Source: an uncultured Psychroserpens sp.
GTDB taxonomy: Bacteria > Bacteroidota > Bacteroidia > Flavobacteriales > Flavobacteriaceae
NCBI RefSeq assembly: GCF_947500255.1
Contig: NZ_CANMRL010000002.1
Coordinates: 310,001-374,000, forward strand
Direction: 5' to 3'
Length of the DNA: 64,000 nucleotides
Below the pieces are notes generated by a model that saw only the letters and a list, made by a program, of their open reading frames with translations, was not told the DNA's origin and searched no databases. Made by a program: the position numbers and the translations under genes. Shown here one piece after another: positions 9,915 to 64,000 of this stretch. The first letter of the stretch is position 1; the number at the start of each line of letters is the position of its first letter.

Positions 9915-10058
9915 AACGCTCTCTTTCAGATGTATTTCATCGATGTTTTGTTAAAAAACGCTTCGTTTCTCCACGATTTTGACTTTTTAACGACTTTTTT
10001 TGATGCCATTTTACAGGCTCAATAAATTTGTAACTTATTAACCTACAAAAGATTAGAC

Positions 10059-10748
10059 ATGCGAGTTTATAGTTGTATACTAATGTTTACATGTATGTTT
10101 TTGGCATTCCCTCAACAGCAAAAAATATACTTCGATACCCAAATCGCCAAACATTTAAAAGCATATAGGGCTAAGTCTGAGGTTGCCATTCAAAATGGTG
10201 ACAACATTTATGCTGGGTTTTTATTTGATTCTATTTTTAATAATTACCTAAAGCATAGTTATATTAGAGATATCTCCCTAAACAAAGTAAAAGGAGGTTC
10301 CTTAAAAACGTCGACTCTCGACAAACCTTTTCTTTTAATTACTAAATCTTCTTGGGAGCAAATTAATCTGGAAGAGATTAATGAAATTAACCGAATGTCT
10401 AAACTCTATAAAGATCAAATTGACATCATAATCTTGTTTTGGGATTCAAAAACTAAAGCTAAGGCGCTTTCTAAAAACTATAATTCTAATGTTATAATCA
10501 CCTATGTTGATGAACGTAAGAATAATTCAAACCACATTATTGCAACATTTAAGCACTCCTTTGGAGCACCAGCATGTTTCTACATTTCAGAAGAAAAACA
10601 ACTCGTTCGAATTGACAAGAAATTTACTATAGTTAAAGATGAAAATAGATCTGAAGTAGCATTTAACGTAATCCATGAAAAGATCAAATGGATGCTTTTC
10701 AAAGAAGAGCCTAATTCTGAAGGTCTTATTATTTCTACTGTTAATTAA
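10059..10748 (+). CDS. secreted protein of unknown function, possibly thioredoxin-like
   Basis: A 229-residue protein with an N-terminal hydrophobic export segment (residues 1-18, ending LAFPQ). Residues about 85-200 have the order of a thioredoxin-fold protein: KPFLLITKSSW, a long helix, then DIIILFWDSKTKAKAL, VIITYVDE and FGAPACFYIS with a cis-Pro-like APA. The CxxC active site is missing, so redox catalysis is unlikely. It stands alone between the TPR gene and the convergent transglycosylase. The fold assignment is an inference from strand order only. Confidence 0.5.
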   Translation: MRVYSCILMFTCMFLAFPQQQKIYFDTQIAKHLKAYRAKSEVAIQNGDNIYAGFLFDSIFNNYLKHSYIRDISLNKVKGGSLKTSTLDKPFLLITKSSWEQINLEEINEINRMSKLYKDQIDIIILFWDSKTKAKALSKNYNSNVIITYVDERKNNSNHIIATFKHSFGAPACFYISEEKQLVRIDKKFTIVKDENRSEVAFNVIHEKIKWMLFKEEPNSEGLIISTVN

Positions 10749-36336: not shown

Positions 36337-39300
36337 ATGATTCATTTCTTCGGAAACCAAAACAGCAAGGTATTTGCTGTTCAAGCAACAAAAGAATTAT
36401 CAATTGAAACCATAGCTAAATTAACGTGGCTATTTGGCGACCAACCTAAACTAGAACAAGCATCTCTCGATGCTTTTTTTGTTGGTCCTCGTGCAGCAAT
36501 GATTACACCTTGGAGTACCAATGCTGTTGAGATTACTCAAAATATGGGAATAAAAAACATTATTCGTATTGAAGAGTTTGAAGCCTGCCCAAAAGATTTT
36601 ATAGAGTATGACCCAATGATTTCCGAAAAATATAACGGATTAGATCAAGAGTCGTTCACCATCGATATACAACCTGAAGATATATTAGACATTGAAGATA
36701 TTTCTGCTTATAACCAACAAGAAGGTTTAGCTTTAAATGACGAAGAAATAGAATACCTTGAAGGTGTCTCAAAAAAAATAGGACGTCCTCTAACCGACTC
36801 AGAAGTTTTTGGGTTTTCACAAGTGAATAGTGAACACTGTCGTCATAAAATTTTCAATGGCACCTTTGTGATTGACGGAGAAGAAAAATCTACATCACTT
36901 TTTAAAATGATTAAAGAAACGTCTAAGCAAAATCCAAATGATATTGTTTCGGCCTATAAAGATAATGTTGCTTTCATTAAAGGACCTAAGGTTGAACAGT
37001 TTGCTCCTAAGCGCGCAGATGTTCCTGATTTTTATGAAACCAAATCGTTTGAATCTGTTATTTCTCTTAAAGCCGAGACGCATAATTTCCCTACAACCGT
37101 CGAACCTTTTAATGGTGCAGCTACTGGATCTGGTGGTGAAATCCGCGATCGACTTGCTGGAGGAAAAGGTTCATTACCCTTAGCTGGAACAGCTGTTTAT
37201 ATGACTTCATATTCACGTTTAGAAGAGAATCGTCCTTGGGAACAAAAACTTGAAGCTAGACCTTGGCTCTATCAAACACCAATGGATATTTTGATTAAAG
37301 CGAGTAATGGTGCTTCAGATTTTGGAAACAAATTTGGGCAACCGCTTATTTGTGGTTCTGTACTTACTTTCGAACATGAAGAGGATGCTAGAAAGTTAGG
37401 TTTTGATAAAGTGATTATGCAAGCTGGTGGCATAGGTTACGGAAAATTAGACCAAGCTATTAAAGCCGTACCTGAATCTGGTGATAAAATTGTAGTACTT
37501 GGTGGTGAAAATTATCGTATCGGAATGGGAGGTGCTGCTGTATCAAGTGCAGATACAGGAGAATTCTCTACAGGAATTGAACTTAATGCAGTACAGCGTT
37601 CAAATCCTGAAATGCAAAAACGAGCAGCCAATGTAGTACGTGGTATGGTAGAAAGTGAAAACAACCATATCATTTCTATTCATGATCATGGTGCTGGTGG
37701 ACACCTTAATTGCTTAAGTGAATTAATTGAAGACACAGGTGGATGCATAGACTTAGATAAATTACCTGTAGGCGATCCTACACTTTCTGATAAAGAAATT
37801 ATTGGAAACGAATCTCAAGAACGTATGGGATTATTAATTGCTGAAAAACACTTAGATCATATCAGTAAAATTGCTGAACGTGAACGTTCTCCATTATATA
37901 CCGTCGGAAATGTAACAGATGACAAACATTTTTGCTTTAAGTCAGAAACGAAAGGTAACAAGCCAATGGATTTAGCATTGGAAGATATGTTCGGTAGTTC
38001 TCCAAAAACGATAATGACCGATATTTCTTTACACAGAGTTTATAGCGATGTTGCTTATAATCCTGACGAGTTTTATAATTACCTAGATCAAGTTTTACAA
38101 CTTGAAGCAGTCGCTTGTAAAGATTGGCTGACCAACAAAGTAGATCGCTGTGTAGGTGGAAAAGTTGCAAAGCAACAATGTGCTGGACCATTACAATTAC
38201 CATTAAATAATGTTGGTGTAATGGCTTTAGATTATAATGGAAAAGAAGGTATTGCCACATCAATTGGTCACTCGCCTATTTCGGGACTAATTAACCCTGA
38301 AGCGGGAAGTAGAAATAGTATTACAGAAGCATTAACCAATATTATTTGGGCGCCCTTAAAAGATGGTCTAAAAAGCGTCTCATTATCTGCTAACTGGATG
38401 TGGCCATGTAAAAATGAAGGTGAAGATGCAAGATTATATAAAGCTGTAAAAGCGATCTCAGAGTTTGCTATCGATTTAGGAATTAATGTTCCTACAGGAA
38501 AAGATTCATTATCGATGAAACAGAAATATCCAAACGAGGAAGTAATCTCTCCAGGAACTGTTATTATTTCTGCGGCAGCGAATTGCAATAATATCAAAAA
38601 TGTAGTTGAGCCTGTGTTTAATAAAAATGCTGGAGATATCTATTACATTAATTTATCTCAAGACCATTTTAAATTAGGCGGAAGTTCTTTTGCCCAAATT
38701 TTAAATAAGATAGGAAATGATGTTCCAAATGTACAAGATGCTTTGTATGTAAAGACTGTTTTCAATACACTTCAACAATTAATTAAAGATCAGCAAATTG
38801 TAGCAGGACATGACGTGGCTTCTGGTGGTTTAATTACAACAGTATTGGAATTATGTTTTGCCGACACCAATTTAGGAGCAGAATTAGATCTTACTGCTTT
38901 AGGGGAAAAAGATTCGCTTAAACTATTATTTGCTGAGAATTCTGGTATCGTATTTCAAGCTAAAGACCAGTCTATTGAGCACATCCTATCAGAAGCTAAT
39001 ATCGAATTTTTCAATATTGGAAAAGTTACCGATACAGATGTTCTTGGCATTATAAATAATAATGAAGTGTTTACAATGACCGTATCCAGATTACGAGATA
39101 TGTGGTATAAGACTTCTTTCTTATTGGATCAAAAACAAACCGCAAATGACTTGGCCGAAGCACGTTTTAAAAATTATTCGAAGCAACCATTAACCTATAC
39201 GTTTCCGAAGCAATTTACTGGCCAATTACCAATTATAGATGCAACCAAACCTAGACCTAAAGCTGCAATTCTTCGTGAAAAAGGGAGTAACTCCGAGCGT

Positions 39301-55248: not shown

Positions 55249-56595
55249 ATGAAACGATTAATAACACTAGTTTTTTTAACCTATTGTACATTTGCATTCG
55301 CGCAAACCAGCCCAAATATTTACGACATTATTGATGCGGTTTCCGAAGAACGTCTAAGACAGGATGTTAAAACTCTTGCCGATTTTGGTACTCGTAACAC
55401 CTTTAGTGACACCATTAGTGAGACAAGAGGTATTGGCGCTGCAAGGCGATGGATAAAAAATGAATTTGAAACTATTTCTAAAAGTTGTAATAACTGCCTG
55501 AATGTATTTTACCAAAAAGATTTTGTCACCAAAGAAGGCAATCGTCGTGTCCCAAAAGATGCTTGGGTGGTTAATGTGGTTGCCATTCAAAAAGGCACCA
55601 AATATCCTAACCGTTACGTTATCATGAGTGGCGATATCGACTCACGTGCTAGTAACACTATGGATTTCACCACAGACGCACCAGGTGCTAATGACAACGC
55701 TTCTGGAATGGCTGGAGCTATTGAAGCTGCCCGTGTGTTATCTAAATATCAATTTGAAAGTAGTATCGTCTATGTAGGTCTATCTGGTGAAGAACAGGGT
55801 TTATTTGGTGGTGCTGGATTAGCAGCCTATGCCAAAGAGCAAGATTGGGACATTATTGGTGTTTTAAATAATGATATGATTGGTAATATTGAAGGTGTAG
55901 ATGGAGTAATTGATAATCGAACATTCCGAATTTTCTCTGAACCTATTACCACAGCCGAAACAGACCCTGAAATATTAGCACGTCAAGCACGAGGTCGTCG
56001 TTTTTTTGGTGGTGAAGTTGATGGTACTTCGCGTCAGCTAGCCCGTTATGTGCATAATACTGTAAAAACGTATATGCCAGAGATGAATCCTATGATGGTT
56101 TATAGACTAGACCGTTTTGGTCGTGGTGGACATCACAGACCTTTTAATGATCTCGGATATCCTGGCATTAGAATTATGGAAGCCCATGAAAATTATACCC
56201 AACAACATCAAGATATTCGCACCGAAAATGACATTGCTTATGGTGATACCTTTGAGCATGTGAATTTTGGATACGCTAAAAAATTGACTGCTGTAAATGC
56301 TATCAATATGGCAAACTTAGCTTGGGCACCTCCTGCTCCATCAACTGTTGAAATTGGCGGAATTGTAGAAGCCTCTGTAAAACTAAAATGGAATGCCGTT
56401 GATGGCGCCAAAGGTTATAAGATTTATTGGAGAGATACCACATCTCCAACTTGGGATCATAGCAGATATGTAGGTAATGTCACCGAGTTTACTTTGGGTG
56501 GCATCGTTATAGATAATTTTTACTTTGGTGTTGCTGCTGTCGATGATGATGGTTTTGAAAGCGTTGTTGTATTTCCTAATAAGATTATGAGATAA
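55249..56595 (+). CDS. secreted M28 family aminopeptidase with FN3-like domain
   Basis: A 448-residue exported zinc peptidase. Signal peptide ends TFAFAQ. The M28 site is seen as MSGDIDSRASNTMDFTTDAP, then GANDNASGMAG with the bridging Asp, SGEEQGLFGGAGL with the catalytic Glu pair, and VLNNDMIGN; the last ligand His is in the HEHV-like TFEHVNFG region. Residues about 355-440 form a fibronectin-like domain (VKLKWNAVDGAKGYKIYWRD). It has no T9SS sorting domain, so it is probably periplasmic or outer-membrane-associated. Ends at a strong terminator. Confidence 0.88.
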   Translation: MKRLITLVFLTYCTFAFAQTSPNIYDIIDAVSEERLRQDVKTLADFGTRNTFSDTISETRGIGAARRWIKNEFETISKSCNNCLNVFYQKDFVTKEGNRRVPKDAWVVNVVAIQKGTKYPNRYVIMSGDIDSRASNTMDFTTDAPGANDNASGMAGAIEAARVLSKYQFESSIVYVGLSGEEQGLFGGAGLAAYAKEQDWDIIGVLNNDMIGNIEGVDGVIDNRTFRIFSEPITTAETDPEILARQARGRRFFGGEVDGTSRQLARYVHNTVKTYMPEMNPMMVYRLDRFGRGGHHRPFNDLGYPGIRIMEAHENYTQQHQDIRTENDIAYGDTFEHVNFGYAKKLTAVNAINMANLAWAPPAPSTVEIGGIVEASVKLKWNAVDGAKGYKIYWRDTTSPTWDHSRYVGNVTEFTLGGIVIDNFYFGVAAVDDDGFESVVVFPNKIMR

Positions 56596-56627
56596 AATAA
56601 TGGATATTTCAATACCGTACGATATAC

Positions 56628-56657
56628 AAAAAGGCTATCCATTAGGATAGCCTTTTT
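56628..56657. terminator. bidirectional intrinsic terminator (M28 / small T9SS gene)
   Basis: AAAAAGGCTATCC (56628-56640) pairs perfectly with GGATAGCCTTTTT (56645-56657), with a 4-nt loop. It lies between the convergent M28 and T9SS genes, 33 and 25 nt from their stops, and serves both. Confidence 0.92.
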
Positions 56658-56681
56658 GATGACTTAAAATAAAAAAACTAA

Positions 56682-57479
56682 CTAATTAACTAAAATCTTT
56701 TTCGAGTTAATACCGTTTTCAGCTTTTACAATCACAACATAAGCACCAGTTGTCATTGTATTAGTATTTATACTTAATTCGTTATTTGAATTTGAAGCAT
56801 TTGATCTATGAACAGATTGTCCAAGAATAGAGTATACTTCAACTGTATCTATTTTTAAATTTGCGTTGTTTAATATCTTGATTTGATCTGCAGATGTATC
56901 AAACATAATATCTAATGATTTATCTGCATCAAAATCTGTTGTACTTAATGTTTCTGGTTGCATGAATACAATTTCAAAACGGTTTAAGTAAAGACCAGCT
57001 GGAAGATTAATTTCGTATGCACCATCTTTAATACTATGGTATACACCTGTTTGAGTATCGTGAACAAAAATCTTCATTGCGTTTGGAATATTTTCCAATT
57101 TGTTAATTGAAATGGTGTTTATTCCACTTGTATTTGTGTGAATACCCAAAGCAATTACTGTTTCTTCGTTAATTTCACCAATAGCTTGGTTAATATATTT
57201 TCCTTGATCAATTACCCAATACATATCATCAGATTGTATGTTGTCAATTGCAGTATCATAATCTGCATCATATCCTTCTGTTGCATTTTCATCTTCTACA
57301 ACTAATATTTCTCTTTCGTAAGTTCCAGCAGAATTAAGTTGCAAACCTATTTTCTTTCTTAGGTCTGGATCATTAGGCGTATTAGCAAATACAAAATTTG
57401 AACACATTAATGCGATACAAAAAAGTAATGCAGATACTCTTGTTGTTTTTGAAATTTGAAAATTTGTAATCGTTTTCAT
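56682..57479 (-). CDS. small T9SS-secreted protein sharing the C-terminal module of the LamG protein
   Basis: A 265-residue exported protein. After a signal segment (residues about 1-33, ending NFVFAN), nearly the whole mature part (from DLRKKIGLQLNSAGTYERE, residue about 39) aligns with the last ~225 residues of the 1404-residue protein at 57981. Shared landmarks include DDMYWVIDQGKY, NTISINKLENIPNAMKIFVH, YSILGQSVHRS and the terminal TTGAYVVIVKAE. The sorting-type end is present although the SPNP motif is not. It has its own promoter module (57585-57823) and the bidirectional terminator. It appears to be a stand-alone duplicate of the large protein's C-terminus. Confidence 0.85.
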   Translation of the reverse strand: MKTITNFQISKTTRVSALLFCIALMCSNFVFANTPNDPDLRKKIGLQLNSAGTYEREILVVEDENATEGYDADYDTAIDNIQSDDMYWVIDQGKYINQAIGEINEETVIALGIHTNTSGINTISINKLENIPNAMKIFVHDTQTGVYHSIKDGAYEINLPAGLYLNRFEIVFMQPETLSTTDFDADKSLDIMFDTSADQIKILNNANLKIDTVEVYSILGQSVHRSNASNSNNELSINTNTMTTGAYVVIVKAENGINSKKILVN

Positions 57480-57584
57480 AATAGTAGGTTTTTAATGATG
57501 CCTTACATCATTGCTTAGTTAAATTCTCTTGTTTTTTTATTAAATGTTGTGCGCGAACTAAATGACATTTAGCGTTTACACGTT

Positions 57585-57655
57585 GAGGGAGAATACTTCG
57601 CTATTACGAAAAGTATTTTGGATTAATTTGAAATTGAAAGAAATATTATGAAAGT
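57585..57655 (-). promoter_or_regulatory. conserved leader element A with hairpin (small T9SS gene)
   Basis: About 71 nt matching the segment at 62293-62364 closely (shared GAGGGA, AAAAGTATTTTGGATTAATT and ATTATGAAAGT). In the transcript, AATACTT (57611-57617) pairs with AAGTATT (57592-57598). It lies 106-176 nt upstream of the ATG, inside the probable 5' UTR. Whether it acts as RNA or as a DNA site is open. Confidence 0.6.
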
Positions 57656-57656
57656 C

Positions 57657-57725
57657 AAATAGGTATTTTATTTCATAGGCTTGGGGCCAAATATTTAATT
57701 GTATGTAACACACAATTTCAATAAC
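57657..57725 (-). promoter_or_regulatory. conserved core promoter block A (small T9SS gene)
   Basis: A 69-nt block nearly identical to 62468-62538; 28 bases (57671-57698) are the same in both, including TAGGCTTGGGGCCAAATA. On the minus strand AATATTTG fits the -7 consensus at all but one position, with TTG 17 nt upstream. The spacer between them contains an inverted repeat, TTGTATGT-A-ACACACAA. It probably drives the gene at 56682. Confidence 0.7.
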
Positions 57726-57760
57726 AGTTCAAATATAGAACGGCAATATGAGGTGGTGTG

Positions 57761-57823
57761 AAATACTCGTTTAGATGCATAAAATACTCGTTATAATGAT
57801 TGAAATTGCATAAAATATCGATT
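57761..57823 (-). repeat. phased regulatory repeat array A
   Basis: Three copies of an 11-bp motif: AAATACTCGTT at 57761-57771, again at 57782-57792, and AAATATCGATT at 57813-57823. Their CG steps are 21 and 30 bp apart, near two and three helical turns, so all lie on about the same DNA face. The same spacings recur in array B. The array lies upstream of the core block when read in gene direction. Confidence 0.72.
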
Positions 57824-57928
57824 AAGTGACATTTATTTAACAACACATAAATGATTGAATATCAGAATATATAGCTTAAAAATCATTGAAATTTCGCACA
57901 TAACGAACATAGTATTCAGTAAAAACAA

Positions 57929-57953
57929 AAAGACCACCAAAAAGGTGATCTTT
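57929..57953 (-). terminator. intrinsic terminator of the LamG gene
   Basis: On the minus strand AAAGATCACC and GGTGGTCTTT (57944-57953 with 57929-57938) form a 10-bp stem with one G-U pair and a 5-nt loop, followed by U-rich sequence. It lies 28 nt past the stop of the large gene. Confidence 0.82.
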
Positions 57954-57980
57954 AAATTGACATAAAATTCTAAAAACTAT

Positions 57981-60900
57981 CTAATTAACTATAACTTTTG
58001 TAGAGTACCCTCCAGTTTCGGTTTCGACTTTTACAATATAAGCTCCAGCACTTAATGTACCTGTTTTTATTTTAATTTCACTTTCATTTACAAAATCATC
58101 TGATGCATATACAGACTGACCAAGAATGGTAAACAGTTCTATACTATCAATAATTAAATGTTTAGGGTTTAGTACAGAAATAACATCAGCTTCGCCATCA
58201 TAAATAACCTGTATGGTATCATCATCTAACTCTGTTGTTTCAACTCCTAATGTATCTTGATTATTAAACACAAGTTCAAAACGACTCAAATGTATACCCG
58301 AAGATAAGATTACCTCATAGTCTCCTTCTTTTAAATTATGATACAATCCAAGTTCGATATCGTGTAAAAAGATATCCATGTCCTCAGGTATGTTTTCCAA
58401 TTTATCAATCGAAATTGTGTTAGATCCAGTGTCATCAACATGAACCCCTAAAGGGAGAACTGTTTCAATGGTCATACTGTTAATACCTTGAATCACATAT
58501 TTACCTTGAGCAATTAACCAATACATATCATCTGCTTGGATATGATATAATTCAGCATCGTATCCCCAATCATAATCCATAGTAGCATTCTCATCAGCAG
58601 TTACCAATATCTTTCTTGTATAGGTTCCAGAAGAATTAAATTTTAATCCAATCTTCATTCTTAGATCACCTTCAGTCTCTGGTTCAGTTTCAGTTTCACC
58701 ATCTTCGGAAATTTGATTAGGTGCAGCATTACGCATAAATGTTGAAGAGCTTGTGGCTTCACTCATAAATACACGCTGACTATTTTTAAATCTAATCGTT
58801 CCTGTGTTTTCACCAACAACAAAGAATCCTTGTCCAACTGGAATGTATCGTCCAGGTAATTTATTACCTACTAAATTACTTTGATCTACATCTTCATCTG
58901 CAATACCATAAGCTGCTGCTGGAACTGCTCCAGCTAAATTATAAGTTGCATAACCGCCTTGATATTCGGCTAAAATATGAGATCCTCCACCCCAATGTTC
59001 CCAAAAATAGATGGTACCTGTTGTATTCCCCGCACCTTCAATTGTTGGTGCATTATCTAGAATAAAGGCATGTGCATCAATAGCAGAAGCATAAGGATTA
59101 CCAACTAAATAATCGTTTCCTGCACTAATTGGCAATGTGATATCTCCATTATTTGGTTTTCCGTTAACAACATAATTTTGTTCTTGTGACACATTACCAG
59201 AAGTATTGGCAACACCTTTCATTGTAAAGCCTTCACCTGGTTTTAAAGTTCCTGTACTTCTTACATGCTGCCATGCAGAATAGTCATCGTCTGGTTGATT
59301 TGCAAATTTCCATACCCAGTAATCTGCAATACCAATTGGTGATCCAGACGTACCATCGTATGAATTTGTAATAAAGTTTATGCTTAATGGTGACGAAGAG
59401 TTTGTTCCGTCTCTAAATACACTAGTCAAAGAATAGTTGGTATTATTAGCTGTTGTACTCGACACACCTACTGGTGATGACCAATAATTATAGGTAAACA
59501 TATCTCTAGTTCCTTGCTGATCTTTTTCCACAGACCCAGAACTTGCAACTTCTAAATCACTATCTTCAGATTGAATTAATTGTGATTCACCTTGTAAATC
59601 AATATCACCATTTAATCTTAAATAATGTGTTACTGTTAAACCATATCCAGTATTTGTCGAATTATTTCCGTCGACTGTAATTTTATTTGAATTCACAATC
59701 AAACCTAGCAATGATCTATTTTTTGAATTAATAGAAGCATTGTCCATCGTTAAATTATGAGATGTTTCGACAATATTCCAATCTACTGAAATGGCAGTGT
59801 TAGATATAGATGTCGCTCCAGGAATTGTTTGTCCTGAACCATTCACCCAAGAAGAACTTGATTCCCAGCTTCCATTTTGTGTAGACTTGTAAGGTAATGG
59901 AGCTGTTTGGGTATCAATAGCACTATTAGGTGTATTGTATAATCTACCATTTAGTGTAGTTTGCGATGATTTGTTAAATAAGCAATTTCCTCTTAAATGT
60001 GAAAACGGAAAGTAACCTTTCAAGTTCGTCCATGGTATGGAAGAAATATCATTTTTTGTAGGTGTAATCCCTTGTGATATAAAATATGAACCTGCTACAT
60101 TACTACCAGATTGCTCAATCTCTTGATTCATTATAAATCGCAATTGGTCTTCAGATAGTTCAACATCCCATATTCTAACTTCGTCAATATCTCCATTAAA
60201 AAAACGACCAGGTGTTTCACCAGAAGCTCCAATCATAAAAGACGATGTAGATGCAGCTGGAGCTGGCTTAATACCAGAACCATCAGCAACACCATCTACA
60301 TAAAGCGTCCCTTTAGTTCCGTTATACGTAAATGCTAAATGATGCCATTCTCCAGTTGGAATAACAACCGACGAAATAAGATATTGCAAACTTGAGGTAG
60401 CATCTCTCCATGTCACCTGAAATTTTCCATTGTTAGCAATTTTAAAATCATAGCCTTCGGCATTATTACTTGTCCTCTTAGAGATGATAGACCTGTTAGT
60501 ACCGCTTGTTCTTTTTACCCAAGCAGACATTGTAAAACTACCAGTATTTAAATCATAGTTATCGCCAAGGTCAACATAGTTAGACGTACCATCAAAGTTA
60601 AAATGATAAGAATCATTCATTTCTACTAATTTCGCTAAGGTGAAATAGTCACCATCTTCTAAATTTAATCCAGTAAAGCTTACGGTTTTAGTCGTGGCAT
60701 TATATGTTCCTGTAATATTTTTATAATTAGTTAAGTCGCTATTGCTTGAAATAATCAATTCTAGATCTGTACTACCAGATATACTCCATTGACTTAAATC
60801 AAAATCCAATTTAATGGTACCAACATCATTAGAGCTTTCTCTGGCTTTCCAAATTCTACCAATGGTAGAAGATACTCTTTCAGGAACTACTGAAGATTGC

Positions 60901-62195
60901 AACTGAATTGCTACTCCATTATTTCCTACCAATAAATAATCTCTATCATTAGAAATAGAATTAGATTCATCCTCCATAGTTAATACAGAAGTTTCCTTAG
61001 TTATTTCCGCAACATGGACACTCTTAGATTTTAGTTGTAATAAGCCAGAGTCATCATCTCTTGCTATGCCAAAAACATTATACCCAAATCCAGAGTTATC
61101 AGATCCAGTCCAAGCATAAGTTCCATTAGAAAGTACATAATCATTACTAGTACCAGAATATCCAAAAGTAGTTGTATGATTTGGTGAGTTTTCCCATCTG
61201 TAATATTCATCATTATAACCAAGAGTAATTCCATACTTAATGGCCATATAAGTTTCAACCTTTTGTCTTTCGGCTGCTGTTAATGCTCTATCATAAACAA
61301 TGATTTCAGCAACTCTTCCTTGTAATAAATTACCAATATCTGTATTACTATTATTTCTTCTTCCACCAATGATAACATCTTTATCTGTGGTTTCTCCAGT
61401 ACCAAAACCAGCATCACCATCTGTATAAGTTGTTAATGGATCGAGGTATCCGTTTACATATTTCTTTATTTTTCCTGATGCTTCATTAGGATCATTTGCC
61501 AATGAGGCTCCACTAATATCAACAACTAAAGATGAAATTTTTGGATCATTTCTGGCATGTGTAATTCCGTAGTTAATTCCACTATTGGGGTCAGATTGAC
61601 TGGTTCCTGAAGTTCTTCCAAGTGTATAATGCACCACACGATCTCTATCTCCTAACCATAATTGGTAACTTCTACTACTACCTGTTGCTCTTGACAATAT
61701 TGTTCCTGCTCCACTTTGATCAGTTAAAAAAGCCGCAAAGATTGACATACTTGAAGGATTTGTTATGGCAGCATCAGGAGACGGTGTTATATCTAAACCT
61801 GTTCCTGAAATAGAAGCTGTTGCTATTTTCATATACTCTCCACCACTTCTTGTAAATCGAAGTGCAGGATTAAAATTAATTGCATCAGTTATATAGGTAG
61901 GTCCATTAGTAGATCCCTTTACAATACTAAACGCGTTAGAAGAATTATCTCCCCAAGTATTCACACGTTGATTATTTGTAGTTGTACTTGTTGAAGCATC
62001 TGCCTTCATCCATAATTGCAATTGTGTACTCACATTACCAGGCGAAGTTGAGATAACCACAGAAGTTTCTGGAGCTTCATAAACTTGTTCACTCGTCTCT
62101 TGTCCAAATACAACAATGGTATTGAATAAAAAGAAGATGATTAGAATACATAATTTGGTAATAGCGGGTCTACCAAAATTCTTAATAGCTTTCAT
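57981..62195 (-). CDS. large LamG-domain T9SS-secreted protein
   Basis: A 1404-residue exported protein, probably a cell-surface or matrix adhesin. The signal peptide ends VVFGQ (residue 32). Two LamG/concanavalin-like domains are seen: one at about 50-325 (LQLWMKADASTSTTTNN at the start, LQGRVAEIIVYDRALTAAE at the end) and one at about 530-700 (FNFDGTSNYVDLGDNYDL; FNGDIDEVRIWDVELSEDQ). Between and after lie long Ser/Thr/Asn-rich beta regions, including NYWSSPVGVSSTTANNTN and LVGNPYASAIDAHAF. An acidic linker (ETETEPETEGD, about 1165-1176) leads to the C-terminal module shared with the protein at 56682. No enzyme motif is seen. Own promoter module at 62293-62636. Confidence 0.85.
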   Translation of the reverse strand: MKAIKNFGRPAITKLCILIIFFLFNTIVVFGQETSEQVYEAPETSVVISTSPGNVSTQLQLWMKADASTSTTTNNQRVNTWGDNSSNAFSIVKGSTNGPTYITDAINFNPALRFTRSGGEYMKIATASISGTGLDITPSPDAAITNPSSMSIFAAFLTDQSGAGTILSRATGSSRSYQLWLGDRDRVVHYTLGRTSGTSQSDPNSGINYGITHARNDPKISSLVVDISGASLANDPNEASGKIKKYVNGYLDPLTTYTDGDAGFGTGETTDKDVIIGGRRNNSNTDIGNLLQGRVAEIIVYDRALTAAERQKVETYMAIKYGITLGYNDEYYRWENSPNHTTTFGYSGTSNDYVLSNGTYAWTGSDNSGFGYNVFGIARDDDSGLLQLKSKSVHVAEITKETSVLTMEDESNSISNDRDYLLVGNNGVAIQLQSSVVPERVSSTIGRIWKARESSNDVGTIKLDFDLSQWSISGSTDLELIISSNSDLTNYKNITGTYNATTKTVSFTGLNLEDGDYFTLAKLVEMNDSYHFNFDGTSNYVDLGDNYDLNTGSFTMSAWVKRTSGTNRSIISKRTSNNAEGYDFKIANNGKFQVTWRDATSSLQYLISSVVIPTGEWHHLAFTYNGTKGTLYVDGVADGSGIKPAPAASTSSFMIGASGETPGRFFNGDIDEVRIWDVELSEDQLRFIMNQEIEQSGSNVAGSYFISQGITPTKNDISSIPWTNLKGYFPFSHLRGNCLFNKSSQTTLNGRLYNTPNSAIDTQTAPLPYKSTQNGSWESSSSWVNGSGQTIPGATSISNTAISVDWNIVETSHNLTMDNASINSKNRSLLGLIVNSNKITVDGNNSTNTGYGLTVTHYLRLNGDIDLQGESQLIQSEDSDLEVASSGSVEKDQQGTRDMFTYNYWSSPVGVSSTTANNTNYSLTSVFRDGTNSSSPLSINFITNSYDGTSGSPIGIADYWVWKFANQPDDDYSAWQHVRSTGTLKPGEGFTMKGVANTSGNVSQEQNYVVNGKPNNGDITLPISAGNDYLVGNPYASAIDAHAFILDNAPTIEGAGNTTGTIYFWEHWGGGSHILAEYQGGYATYNLAGAVPAAAYGIADEDVDQSNLVGNKLPGRYIPVGQGFFVVGENTGTIRFKNSQRVFMSEATSSSTFMRNAAPNQISEDGETETEPETEGDLRMKIGLKFNSSGTYTRKILVTADENATMDYDWGYDAELYHIQADDMYWLIAQGKYVIQGINSMTIETVLPLGVHVDDTGSNTISIDKLENIPEDMDIFLHDIELGLYHNLKEGDYEVILSSGIHLSRFELVFNNQDTLGVETTELDDDTIQVIYDGEADVISVLNPKHLIIDSIELFTILGQSVYASDDFVNESEIKIKTGTLSAGAYIVKVETETGGYSTKVIVN

Positions 62196-62292
62196 ACATA
62201 ATAATTTTTAAGGTGCATCGCACCACAGTAAATCCCTTACTTTTAGTTTAATTAGGTTAGGCAATGTTAACTAAAGCTAACACATAGCACTA

Positions 62293-62364
62293 TGAGGGAA
62301 ATACTTTCTAGCTATAAAAAGTATTTTGGATTAATTAGATATTGAATAAATATTATGAAAGTGT
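62293..62364 (-). promoter_or_regulatory. conserved leader element B with hairpin (LamG gene)
   Basis: Matches leader element A. In the transcript AATACTTT (62318-62325 on the + strand reads AAAGTATT) pairs with AAAGTATT (62300-62307): an 8-bp stem, one pair longer than in A. It lies 98-169 nt upstream of the LamG ATG. Confidence 0.6.
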
Positions 62365-62467
62365 ATTACCGATTTGGGTATTGCGAAATGTATTAAAACG
62401 ATCCTGAAATTGTCTGCTGAACAGACTTGGAAAGAAAAGAACATAACGCTGTAGTATTAACTACATT
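62365..62467 (-). other. segment present only upstream of the LamG gene
   Basis: About 103 nt lie between leader element B and core block B, where A has only a base or two. It holds two inverted repeats: GTCTG (62412-62416) with CAGAC (62422-62426), and TGTAGT (62450-62455) with ACTACA (62460-62465). Both could fold in the transcript. No coding sequence is seen. Confidence 0.5.
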
Positions 62468-62538
62468 AAATAGGTATTTTTGTTTCATAGGCTTGGGGCC
62501 AAATATTTAAAAGTGATATAAATCACAATTTCAATAAC
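62468..62538 (-). promoter_or_regulatory. conserved core promoter block B (LamG gene)
   Basis: A 71-nt block nearly identical to 57657-57725, with the 28-base identical core at 62483-62510. The spacer of the probable promoter holds GTGAT-ATAA-ATCAC (62513-62526), whose outer flank makes it read like a CRP/FNR-type TGTGA-N6-TCAC site, whereas copy A has a different inverted repeat at the same place. Confidence 0.7.
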
Positions 62539-62574
62539 GGCGTAAATGTATACTTACGCGATACAAGTATACAG

Positions 62575-62636
62575 AATAAATCGATTAAATGCATTAAATA
62601 TTCGACGAAATACATAAAAATGTTAAAAAAATCGCT
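62575..62636 (-). repeat. phased regulatory repeat array B
   Basis: Degenerate copies of the array A motif: AATAAATCGATT (62575-62586), AAATATTCGAC (62596-62606) and AAAAAATCGCT (about 62626-62636). Their CG steps lie at 62582, 62603 and 62633, i.e. 21 and 30 bp apart, the same as in array A, and the first is 44 bp from the core block against 43 bp in A. The rest of 62539-62743 is AT-rich with nothing else recognised. Confidence 0.65.
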
Positions 62637-62743
62637 GAAAAACAGCGCTAAGGCCTATAAAACACAAAAATTGTAAATATCACATAATCAGCATTTTAGT
62701 GATTTTAACATGTTAAAATTGTAAGTAAAGTCTTTAAAAAACC

Positions 62744-63307
62744 ATGGAATACTACTTCAAAACAGACATAGAATGGCGTAATTGGCTCCTTGAGAACCAC
62801 AATTCTTCAGCAGGTATCTACTTAATCTTTTATAAAGTTGAAAACAAAGAGGCGTCGATGCGTTGGGAAGAAGCCGTTAAAGTAGCACTTTGTTATGGTT
62901 GGATTGATTCTACTGTTAAAAGTCTTGGCAATGGAAAACGCAGGCAATATTTCTGTCCGAGAAAACCTAAAAGTGTTTGGAGTGCCTTAAACAAAAGACA
63001 CATTAAAGAACTTTCTGCTAAAAATCTAATTCATGAAAGTGGATTAAATAGTATAAGAACAGCTAAAAAGAATGGTAGTTGGACAGCATTAGACAACGTA
63101 GAAAAAGGAATAGTGCCTACCGAGTTGCAGTTAGAATTTGATAAAAACTCTAAGGCCTTTGAAAATTTTAAAAACTTTGCGCCTTCTTATAGAAAAGGCT
63201 ACTTATACTGGTTAAATCAAGCAAAACGTGAGGTGACGCGACAAAAAAGAATCGCAGAGATCATAAAACTTTGCGAAGCAAATATTAAAAGTAGAGCTAC
63301 TTGGTAG
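62744..63307 (+). CDS. YdeI/OmpD-associated family protein
   Basis: A 187-residue cytoplasmic protein of the YdeI family. Diagnostic segments are WRNWLLENHNSSAGIYLIFY, MRWEEAVKVALCYGWIDST, and the basic KRRQYFCPRKPKSVWSALNK. The C-terminal helix region has FAPSYRKGYLYWLNQAKRE, typical of the family's bacteriocin-tolerance members. The molecular role is unknown. Its stop codon (63305-63307) directly abuts the stop of the convergent response-regulator gene. Confidence 0.88.
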   Translation: MEYYFKTDIEWRNWLLENHNSSAGIYLIFYKVENKEASMRWEEAVKVALCYGWIDSTVKSLGNGKRRQYFCPRKPKSVWSALNKRHIKELSAKNLIHESGLNSIRTAKKNGSWTALDNVEKGIVPTELQLEFDKNSKAFENFKNFAPSYRKGYLYWLNQAKREVTRQKRIAEIIKLCEANIKSRATW

Positions 63308-64000
63308 CTAAAACATCAATTTTTTTATGTTATCCATATATCCTCTACTCACTCTTACGATGTCACCATTTAACATGGTTACATCATAACTTTTTGTATA
63401 CTTATTAAGTTCTTTTACTTTATTTAAATTGATTATAGAAGAACGATGTACTCTAATAAAAATGCTGCTATTAAGCTTCTCTTCCAATGTTGATATTCCG
63501 TAGTTACTCAAATAGGTCTTATCTGTTACAACAATTTTTGAATAATCACCATAAGCTTCAATTCTAACCACTTCTTCCAAGGCAATGGTTACCAATTTAT
63601 TTTGGCTCTGTACCAATATACGCTGTGGAGATTTTGTGGTATCCATTAATAAGCTCTCTGCCAATGGTCTTGCTTTATTTTGATTGCTGTTTTTTTCAGA
63701 TTTTTCAACTGCTGTTTTAAATCGTTCTTTAGTATATGGCTTTAAAAGATAATCTATAGCATGAACCTCAAAAGCTTTTAATGCGTATTTATCATAAGCC
63801 GTAGAAAAAATAATTTGTGGTAATTCCTCTAAATGTTTTAGTACATCAAACCCTGTCATTCCGGGCATTTGAATATCTAGAAAGATCAAATCTGGTTTAA
63901 ACTCATTAATCATTTTCACTGCATCTACACCATTATTAGCTTCTCCCAATAGGATTAAATGCGAAAAATCTTCAAGATATTCTCTTATGAGTTGTCGCCC
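63308..64000 (-). CDS. LytTR-family response regulator (5' end outside window)
   Basis: The frame stays open to the right edge, with 230 residues visible. The receiver domain has the phospho-acceptor Asp in PDLIFLDIQMPGMTG, the Thr/Lys switch residues in QIIFSTAYDKYALKAFEVHA and IDYLLKPYTKERF. The C-terminal LytTR DNA-binding domain is seen as RILVQSQNKLVTIALEEVVR, ISTLEEKLNSSIFIRVHRS and VRVSRGYMDNIKKL. Upstream in-frame residues (GRQLIREYLEDFSHLILLGE) show that the true start lies outside. Its partner is probably a LytS-type histidine kinase upstream, not seen here. Confidence 0.92.
   Translation of the reverse strand, partial: GRQLIREYLEDFSHLILLGEANNGVDAVKMINEFKPDLIFLDIQMPGMTGFDVLKHLEELPQIIFSTAYDKYALKAFEVHAIDYLLKPYTKERFKTAVEKSEKNSNQNKARPLAESLLMDTTKSPQRILVQSQNKLVTIALEEVVRIEAYGDYSKIVVTDKTYLSNYGISTLEEKLNSSIFIRVHRSSIINLNKVKELNKYTKSYDVTMLNGDIVRVSRGYMDNIKKLMF

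Follow-up and report, generated by a model that had tools for sequence, protein, structure and literature searches.

A candidate two-part control region upstream of two type IX secretion cargo genes in Psychroserpens, with relatives across Flavobacteriaceae

The control of type IX secretion system (T9SS) genes is, in the accessible text of the literature that we searched, known mainly for the secretion machine of Porphyromonas and far less for cargo genes of Flavobacteriaceae. In Porphyromonas gingivalis, PorXY-SigP controls the T9SS, and SigP is an extracytoplasmic function (ECF) factor that acts on secretion-machine genes (PMC4800418, as far as its accessible text goes). PorA of the same organism is a surface protein of 246 amino acids (aa) with a type A C-terminal domain that acts upstream of PorXY, and the available part of the report gives homologues just in Porphyromonas (PMC7712824). 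With respect to promoters, the Bacteroidota sigma-A promoter with its -7 box TAnnTTTG has been mapped in Flavobacterium psychrophilum (PMC9723704, likewise accessible in part). Here, we compare with these systems the upstream regions of two T9SS cargo genes that lie next to each other in a stretch of 64,000 nucleotides (nt) from an uncultured Psychroserpens sp. (contig NZ_CANMRL010000002.1, positions 310,001 to 374,000; hereafter the window).

Both genes are on the minus strand. The small gene (56682..57479) encodes a 265-aa protein with an apparent signal peptide and a C-terminal region of ~230 aa that ends in a type A sorting domain (Por_Secre_tail, E 1.4e-8; TIGR04183; homologues). The large gene (57981..62195) encodes a protein of 1404 aa, in which a LamG-like domain (Laminin_G_3, E 1.1e-35) is followed by the same ~230-aa region and a type A sorting domain (Por_Secre_tail, E 2.7e-6). 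Both proteins exceed the cut-offs of TIGR04183 and PF18962, which identifies them as T9SS type A cargo, and they are 50% identical over their last ~230 residues; because of this common region, the control region, too, probably stems from a duplication. A terminator-like hairpin with a U-run, recognised by reading the sequence, lies downstream of the large gene (57920..57954, minus strand), and the small-gene alignment shows a similar hairpin; the small gene therefore probably has its own promoter. In our assessment, the better-supported explanation is that an old duplication provided the two genes with separate copies of a two-part control region, namely an activator-type sigma-A promoter and a post-transcriptional leader element. 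This reading stands on sequence conservation, geometry and gene classes, from which we infer activator binding, the transcription start, an RNA-level function and co-regulation.

Toward each gene, the order of the parts is array, -7 box, core, leader and ATG. For the small gene, the array has CGA at 57820, 57790 and 57769, i.e., at spacings of 30 and 21 nt (57767..57820), and is followed, 32 nt past the last CGA, by the -7 box TATATTTG (57730..57737), which we recognised by the published consensus (PMC9723704, accessible text). Then come the core (57671..57698), with the putative leader element UUUGGC-CCCAA-GCC, the motif AAATACCTATTT (57657..57668), which according to alignments and the leader profile described below is the counterpart of a AAATACCTACTT that some genes in other genera have ahead of the ATG, and the leader hairpin AAUACUU..AAGUAUU with UCCCUC behind it (57585..57619). 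For the large gene, the CGA triplets are at 62634, 62604 and 62583, again at spacings of 30 and 21 nt (62568..62634), the box search placed the -7 box TACATTTA 33 nt past the last of them (62543..62550), and the core (62483..62510), AAATACCTATTT (62468..62479, by sequence and alignment), a 103-nt stretch between core and leader (62365..62467) and the hairpin with UCCCUC (62293..62327) follow. All of these features are on the minus strand. An earlier note on this DNA had described the same parts upstream of both genes, and this holds: the 28-nt core is identical in the two copies, the leader repeats are 79% (57592-57638/62300-62346) and 77% (57638-57668/62345-62375) identical, and the gap between core and leader is indeed 103 nt larger in the large-gene copy. 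The 28-nt core has these two places in the window and no others at up to three mismatches (0 in 100 shuffles), and a 21-nt part of it, at the same tolerance, matches the 4.0-Mb genome exactly twice.

The same 21-nt part, with at most three mismatches, is present at the same type of locus in 13 of the 23 genomes of the genus, eight of which have two copies, 3.9-5.4 kb apart, and five of which have one. The exact core is also found in one record named Arcticiflavibacter luteus, and the core is present in the record of the non-pathogenic P. burtonensis DSM 12212. Three more matches with three mismatches (G010:C1, G014:C1 and G041:C10) were taken as chance, and the reversed core pattern had no match in 57 genomes. 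As 21 core copies, spread over 13 of the 23 Psychroserpens genomes (both copies in eight), show this layout, we regard the duplication as old.

An alignment of these 21 copies (13 upstream of the large and 8 upstream of the small gene) gave the order CG sites, TAnnTTTR box, a loosely kept GTTATTGAAATTGTG, core, ACCTATTT, the extra stretch in large-gene copies, hairpin, UCCCUC and ATG. CG triples at exactly 30 and 21 nt occur in 17 of the 21 copies (8/8 small-gene and 9/13 large-gene copies), as compared with 12 of 4200 mononucleotide shuffles at a tolerance of +-1 nt, which bears out the two spacings to which attention had been drawn. All 21 copies have a TAnnTTTR box downstream of the array and 43-50 nt ahead of the core; the G-ending form TAnnTTTG is present in all 8 small-gene copies and in 2 of the 13 large-gene copies, all 13 of which have TAnnTTTR. 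Among 12 large-gene copies, 11 have the leader motif CCAAAATACTTTT 159-177 nt from the core (115 nt in L028); among six small-gene copies, five have it at 69-70 nt (168 nt in L026). These counts leave out the three of 21 copies in which the motif was mislocated (L035, L038, L041). The extra stretch, which the earlier note had pointed out in the large-gene copy, is thus present there but not peculiar to it, being found in large-gene copies of the genus and shorter in L028. The first long open reading frame (ORF) has its ATG 174-338 nt from the core in 20 of the 21 copies, L039 having been skipped because its core surroundings are identical to those of a listed copy.

One might ask whether duplication and shared ancestry alone, with gene conversion keeping the core identical, would account for these similarities in the absence of shared regulation. 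The common C-terminal region and the probable duplication of the control region would be in line with this. However, in small-gene and large-gene copies alike, the different species have kept the spacing, the -7 box, the core and the hairpin while the linking sequence has diverged, and related parts are present in other genera, such that we hold this explanation to be quite improbable. That eight genomes of the genus hold both copies also speaks for the earlier proposal that the parts were kept by selection and are not a recent copy.

With respect to the core, the earlier note had seen in it a part of the promoter, and here our view departs from it. The core is most likely transcribed leader and not promoter, because the TAnnTTTR box precedes it in all 21 copies and because the matching element in other genera follows the -7 box and precedes the start codon. 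The ~230-aa C-terminal region is matched in 118 of 199 Flavobacteriaceae genomes, among the matches listed mostly in frames of ~1000-3000 aa. Genes of other genera that carry it were picked from among the score-ranked matches listed (some with misassigned starts, e.g., L111_4, L157 and L167), and their upstream regions have ...TTAGTCCCAAACTAA...TTTAACCNCTTATG in common. In other Flavobacteriaceae, T9SS genes have a leader element that can be written as TTAGTCCCAAACTAA...AACCNCTTATG, a weak hairpin whose loop is rich in C, and the core is what matches this element best in the window. A profile built from 47 such leaders, none of them from the window genes, ranked the two cores first (small gene, 57661-57699) and second among 29 matches on both strands of the window, with E-values of 0.011 and 0.016; the next match had 0.26 and fell inside a 1231-aa ORF. 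Because the cores take the first two ranks in this independent profile, the most likely reading is that Psychroserpens has the element in the form of the core, with the ATG shifted away. A profile of an eight-member subgroup gave E-values of 0.0022 and 0.0074 for the cores and 2.3 for the next match, and these are partly circular, since its members were chosen for their likeness to the core.

In other Flavobacteriaceae, the related parts stand in a compact form ahead of T9SS cargo genes, with TTTG ~20 nt upstream of the TAnnTTTG box and the C-rich loop ~25 nt from both the start of the -7 box, which precedes it, and the ATG, which follows; from the box-to-ATG distances, the leader is estimated at ~38 nt. 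A hairpin with CCC in its loop and a stem of 5 bp or more, whatever its sequence, within 70 nt of the ATG (C-loop hairpin), was found in 37 of 66 genes of other genera, as compared with 0/66 for a GGG loop and 0/65 for a distant region. In the genome of the window, it is present in 4 of 19 genes (3/4 with the C-terminal domain, 1/15 without), and the GGG form in 1/19. The commonest stem of the family is TTAGT-ACTAA (19/39), and some stems vary pairwise (TTGGT/ACCAA, TTGAT/GTCAA, ATAGT/ACTAT), with the C-rich loop staying on the sense strand.

These observations bear on a rival view, in which the core is itself the promoter, with TTTGGCC as -33 and TACCTATTT as -7 element, or an operator with the dyad TTGG-N2-CCAA, and transcription starts in the leader. 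The spacing of 22-23 nt from TTG to TACC and the extreme conservation of the motif are in its favor, and the short dyad would also fit a dimeric protein, but TACCTATTT is not TAnnTTTG, and the upstream box in every copy, the position of the element in other genera and the paired variation of stems around a sense-strand loop all make this view unlikely. Two other promoter types were tried and, on sequence, rejected. Sigma-54 promoters follow the rule GG-N10-GC, and GGCCCCAAGCC of the core has just 6 nt between GG and GC. For an ECF (SigP-like) promoter, the CGT-type -10 box (PMC9723704, accessible text) would be expected, and the box consensus is TATATTTG instead.

We therefore return to the core as part of a transcribed leader, in which the second conserved part is the distal hairpin. 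It forms in single folds of 21/21 copies, with z-scores of -1.0 to -6.3 against mononucleotide shuffles. In the alignment, 93.2% of its cells are standard pairs, as compared with 33.8-50.4% when the strands are slid, and two-sided changes occur at 3 of 7 pairs; the pair-count values were reached by 0/500 shuffles. A riboswitch or terminator-type attenuator that senses a small molecule would go together with the length of the leader, the conserved hairpin and the C-rich motifs. However, the hairpin is trailed by UCCCUC rather than by a U-run, the compact relatives have a leader estimated at ~38 nt, and a search of 56000-64000 with Rfam gave seven weak matches, none of which reached the gathering score, so that no known structured RNA was identified there; we give this possibility little credence.

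The start codons behind these leaders have an unusual context. In F. johnsoniae, A at -3, -6, -12 and -13 are positive determinants of initiation (PMC6847099, accessible text). Among 55 leaders, 43 have C at -6 and 37 have it at -3, and A is kept at -12 by 51 and at -13 by 46; for comparison, 15 T9SS genes without the domain from the genome of the window have A at -6 in 8 and at -3 in 6. Such a context would suit translation that needs help or that can be held down.

The array, too, has relatives in the family. In C-terminal-domain genes it reads TGCATTTCATCGA(N)5TTTGCATTTCATGGA, ~9 nt upstream of TAnnTTTG, with direct repeats spaced 20-21 nt. The consensus TGCATTTCATCGATTTTATTTGCATTTCATGGA is matched at 33/33 positions in L147, L160 and L170, which represent three genera, and at least 24/33 matches are found in 41 of 70 domain genes (66 from other genera and 4 from the genome of the window), against 18-23 for the highest-scoring of 20 dinucleotide shuffles made of each sequence and 15-23 for the 15 T9SS genes without the domain. 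A -7 box follows 6-13 nt downstream in 34 of these 41 genes, exactly 9 nt downstream in 29 of the 34. With up to three mismatches, the array pattern occurs in 75 of 199 Flavobacteriaceae genomes, and the reversed control in none. Furthermore, a sequence model from 36 array sites, none from Psychroserpens (R1), detected the large-gene array in the window (62568-62614, E 4.4e-6) and matched the orthologous large-gene arrays in five genomes (G001, G004, G005, G009, G010). In genome scans, in which 150 candidates were scored per genome, R1 gave between 26 and 48 matches at E<=1 for every one of 11 Psychroserpens genomes, their best E-values ranging from 5e-8 to 5e-14, and 3-14 matches for eight genomes of other families, with a best E above 0.03 in six of the eight (exceptions G036, 8.4e-6, and G040, 0.002); the large-gene array of the window was not among the matches listed for its genome.

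In this reading, on the DNA, the row of CG direct-repeat sites, 21 and 30 nt or about two and three helical turns apart, would serve as an array for an activator. With the last CG site 32-33 nt ahead of the TAnnTTTR box, and with a nearly constant distance to the -7 box in the compact form, the array would allow the activator to contact the sigma-A polymerase. On the RNA, the 28-nt core, the distal hairpin and UCCCUC would lie in the 5' leader, since the transcript would begin upstream of the core, and a putative factor that recognises the C-rich motif would set translation or stability.

A number of points weigh against this reading. On the side of the promoter, the -7 box was scored without a shuffle control, several copies have more than one match and the one 43-50 nt before the core was chosen; some of the genes used to write the array consensus were afterwards scored with it; and R1 did not detect the small-gene array in the window even at E<=10. 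On the side of the leader, 29 of the 66 genes of other genera lack a C-loop hairpin, nearly half of the family members (19/39) share one and the same stem, and the stem around the loop of the core in the window amounts to three G-C pairs. The 47 leaders of the profile (A1) were picked by eye as recognisable, RNAalifold returned no structure for the plain alignment of the family element, and the distances to box and ATG do not tell whether the element is tied to the promoter or to the start codon. As to the distal hairpin, its structure was selected from the same sequences that were later scored for pairing, each two-sided change rests on one sequence, the fold of L027 barely beats its shuffles (z -1.0), and RNAalifold gave no consensus structure for the aligned copies. 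Finally, when array sites of every kind are considered, just 14 of the 74 genes behind them have the C-loop hairpin.

The latter count comes from an inspection of 90 array sites, 30 loci from the pattern search and 60 chosen from among the further matches listed, 74 of which have a start codon on the same strand within 420 nt. CCC is present within 55 nt of the ATG in 43 of these 74 genes and GGG in 3, and there is no G-loop hairpin among them. By reading, 21 of the 74 belong to one family of ~440 aa (QQEKGI...NW); 12 match peptidase M14 and 2 match leucine-rich repeats, and further ones are secreted giants of the type seen in the window. The link to secreted surface proteins made in the earlier note is supported. 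No regulator was recognised among the 74 genes, for which 25 of the 35 Pfam families found there were viewed. Because related parts precede many secreted-protein genes in the family, they look like a widespread, undescribed switch. The earlier note had proposed a small regulon; the exact core is limited to these two genes in its genome, but the array, with its occurrence in 75 genomes, is not so confined. Hence, the earlier interpretation stands in part, with old conservation and the surface-protein link upheld and the role of the core and the confinement of the array revised.

In 13 genomes, an array site lies directly behind the porX stop codon, antisense and thus pointing into porX. These comprise 10 of the 90 sites (L257, L259, L265, L273, L277, L279, L280, L284, L287 and L296, at about base 100, counted from the end of the locus at which the site lies) and three sites added from coordinates (G005, G073 and G153), and in all 13 the site is 3-8 nt from the last PorX codon, stop codon included. 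In the genome of the window, a weaker site (E 0.0035; L249:294-326) lies 37 nt behind porX (PorX, E 2.8e-255), and the next gene away from porX is presumably tsaE-like. No clear -7 box follows the porX-adjacent site, which may therefore be an operator rather than a promoter. The presence of porX as such does not discriminate, because the gene is nearly universal (over the cut-off in 190/199 genomes). It is conceivable, though we propose it tentatively and think it more doubtful than the two-part control region itself, that there is a family-wide T9SS cargo regulon with two layers, in which a putative activator would bind tandem TGCATTTCATSGA sites and a putative RNA-binding factor or small RNA would read the C-rich hairpin beside a start codon with a conserved, non-optimal C at -3 and -6, the porX site tying cargo output to the T9SS response regulator.

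Several further observations concern single loci. The genome of the window contains another short/long pair of genes with the C-terminal domain (271 and 3108 aa; L099:2697-12973), with a clear array ahead of the 271-aa gene (G000:C3:467580-467612) and an array score of just 16/33 for the 3108-aa gene; such neighbouring pairs were also found in G212, G135 and G129. Read by eye, the short gene of G135 (L113:5553-6045) has a leader of more than 200 nt; it contains CCCCCAAAC and, ahead of the ATG, a hairpin resembling a terminator, a hint of attenuation. At L248:1143-5401, an array is followed by a 436-aa QQEKGI protein, a 488-aa ORF and a third ORF, which we take to be PorP/SprF-like. Tiny PID-CTERM-like proteins behind arrays (L262:194-382, which passes the NCBIfam cut-off, L311:1878-2078, below it, and L246:197-544, by eye) would connect the array with a second route of surface sorting. 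In the window itself, a half array site (TGTATTTCATCGATGTTTT) and a TAAATTTG box lie upstream of a 229-aa ORF at 10059 (9927-10059); the array-model match at 9931-9949 was rejected as a half site, a leader-profile match at 38279-38294 because it is inside the 1231-aa ORF, and a match of the array pattern near a kinase-like gene elsewhere in the genome (L209), inside an open frame, was treated as chance. The neighbouring LytTR regulator (63308-64000) is unsupported as a dedicated regulator; G010, the one genome compared, has a different-looking ORF of 317 aa there.

A recognisable cis-module makes it possible to list candidate regulon members from sequence alone and provides a defined DNA bait for finding the activator. 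It also lets one ask whether these bacteria, which are without Shine-Dalgarno signals, control surface proteins via a C-rich leader element.

How does this region relate to known systems? LytTR-type regulators such as AgrA and ComE bind direct repeats ~21 nt apart upstream of the promoter, and the 20-21 nt repeat spacing of the present array resembles theirs in a comparison of spacing alone. With the Bacteroidota sigma-A promoter, the region shares the TAnnTTTG box and, in the compact form, a TTTG ~20 nt upstream of it; to the promoter mapped in F. psychrophilum, it adds a tandem array at a fixed distance and a conserved leader element, and the accessible text of that report names six sigma-factor motifs, none described as such an array (PMC9723704). 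In the literature searched, which lacked most subscription papers and preprints and included four reports accessible in part (PMC9723704, PMC4800418, PMC7712824, PMC6847099), we found no description of the array or of the leader element. As far as the available parts of the respective papers go, the small protein of the window (265 aa) and PorA (246 aa) are alike in size and layout, on which alone they were compared (PMC7712824). Like PorXY-SigP, the region is connected to T9SS-linked genes, with an array site behind porX in 13 other Flavobacteriaceae genomes and a weaker and more distant one in its own; unlike SigP, which has another motif, it has a sigma-A-like -7 box and stands ahead of genes that are mostly cargo-like (PMC4800418, accessible text). 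An activator-type promoter with a conserved leader is of a known kind, and within the literature searched this combination appears to be new.

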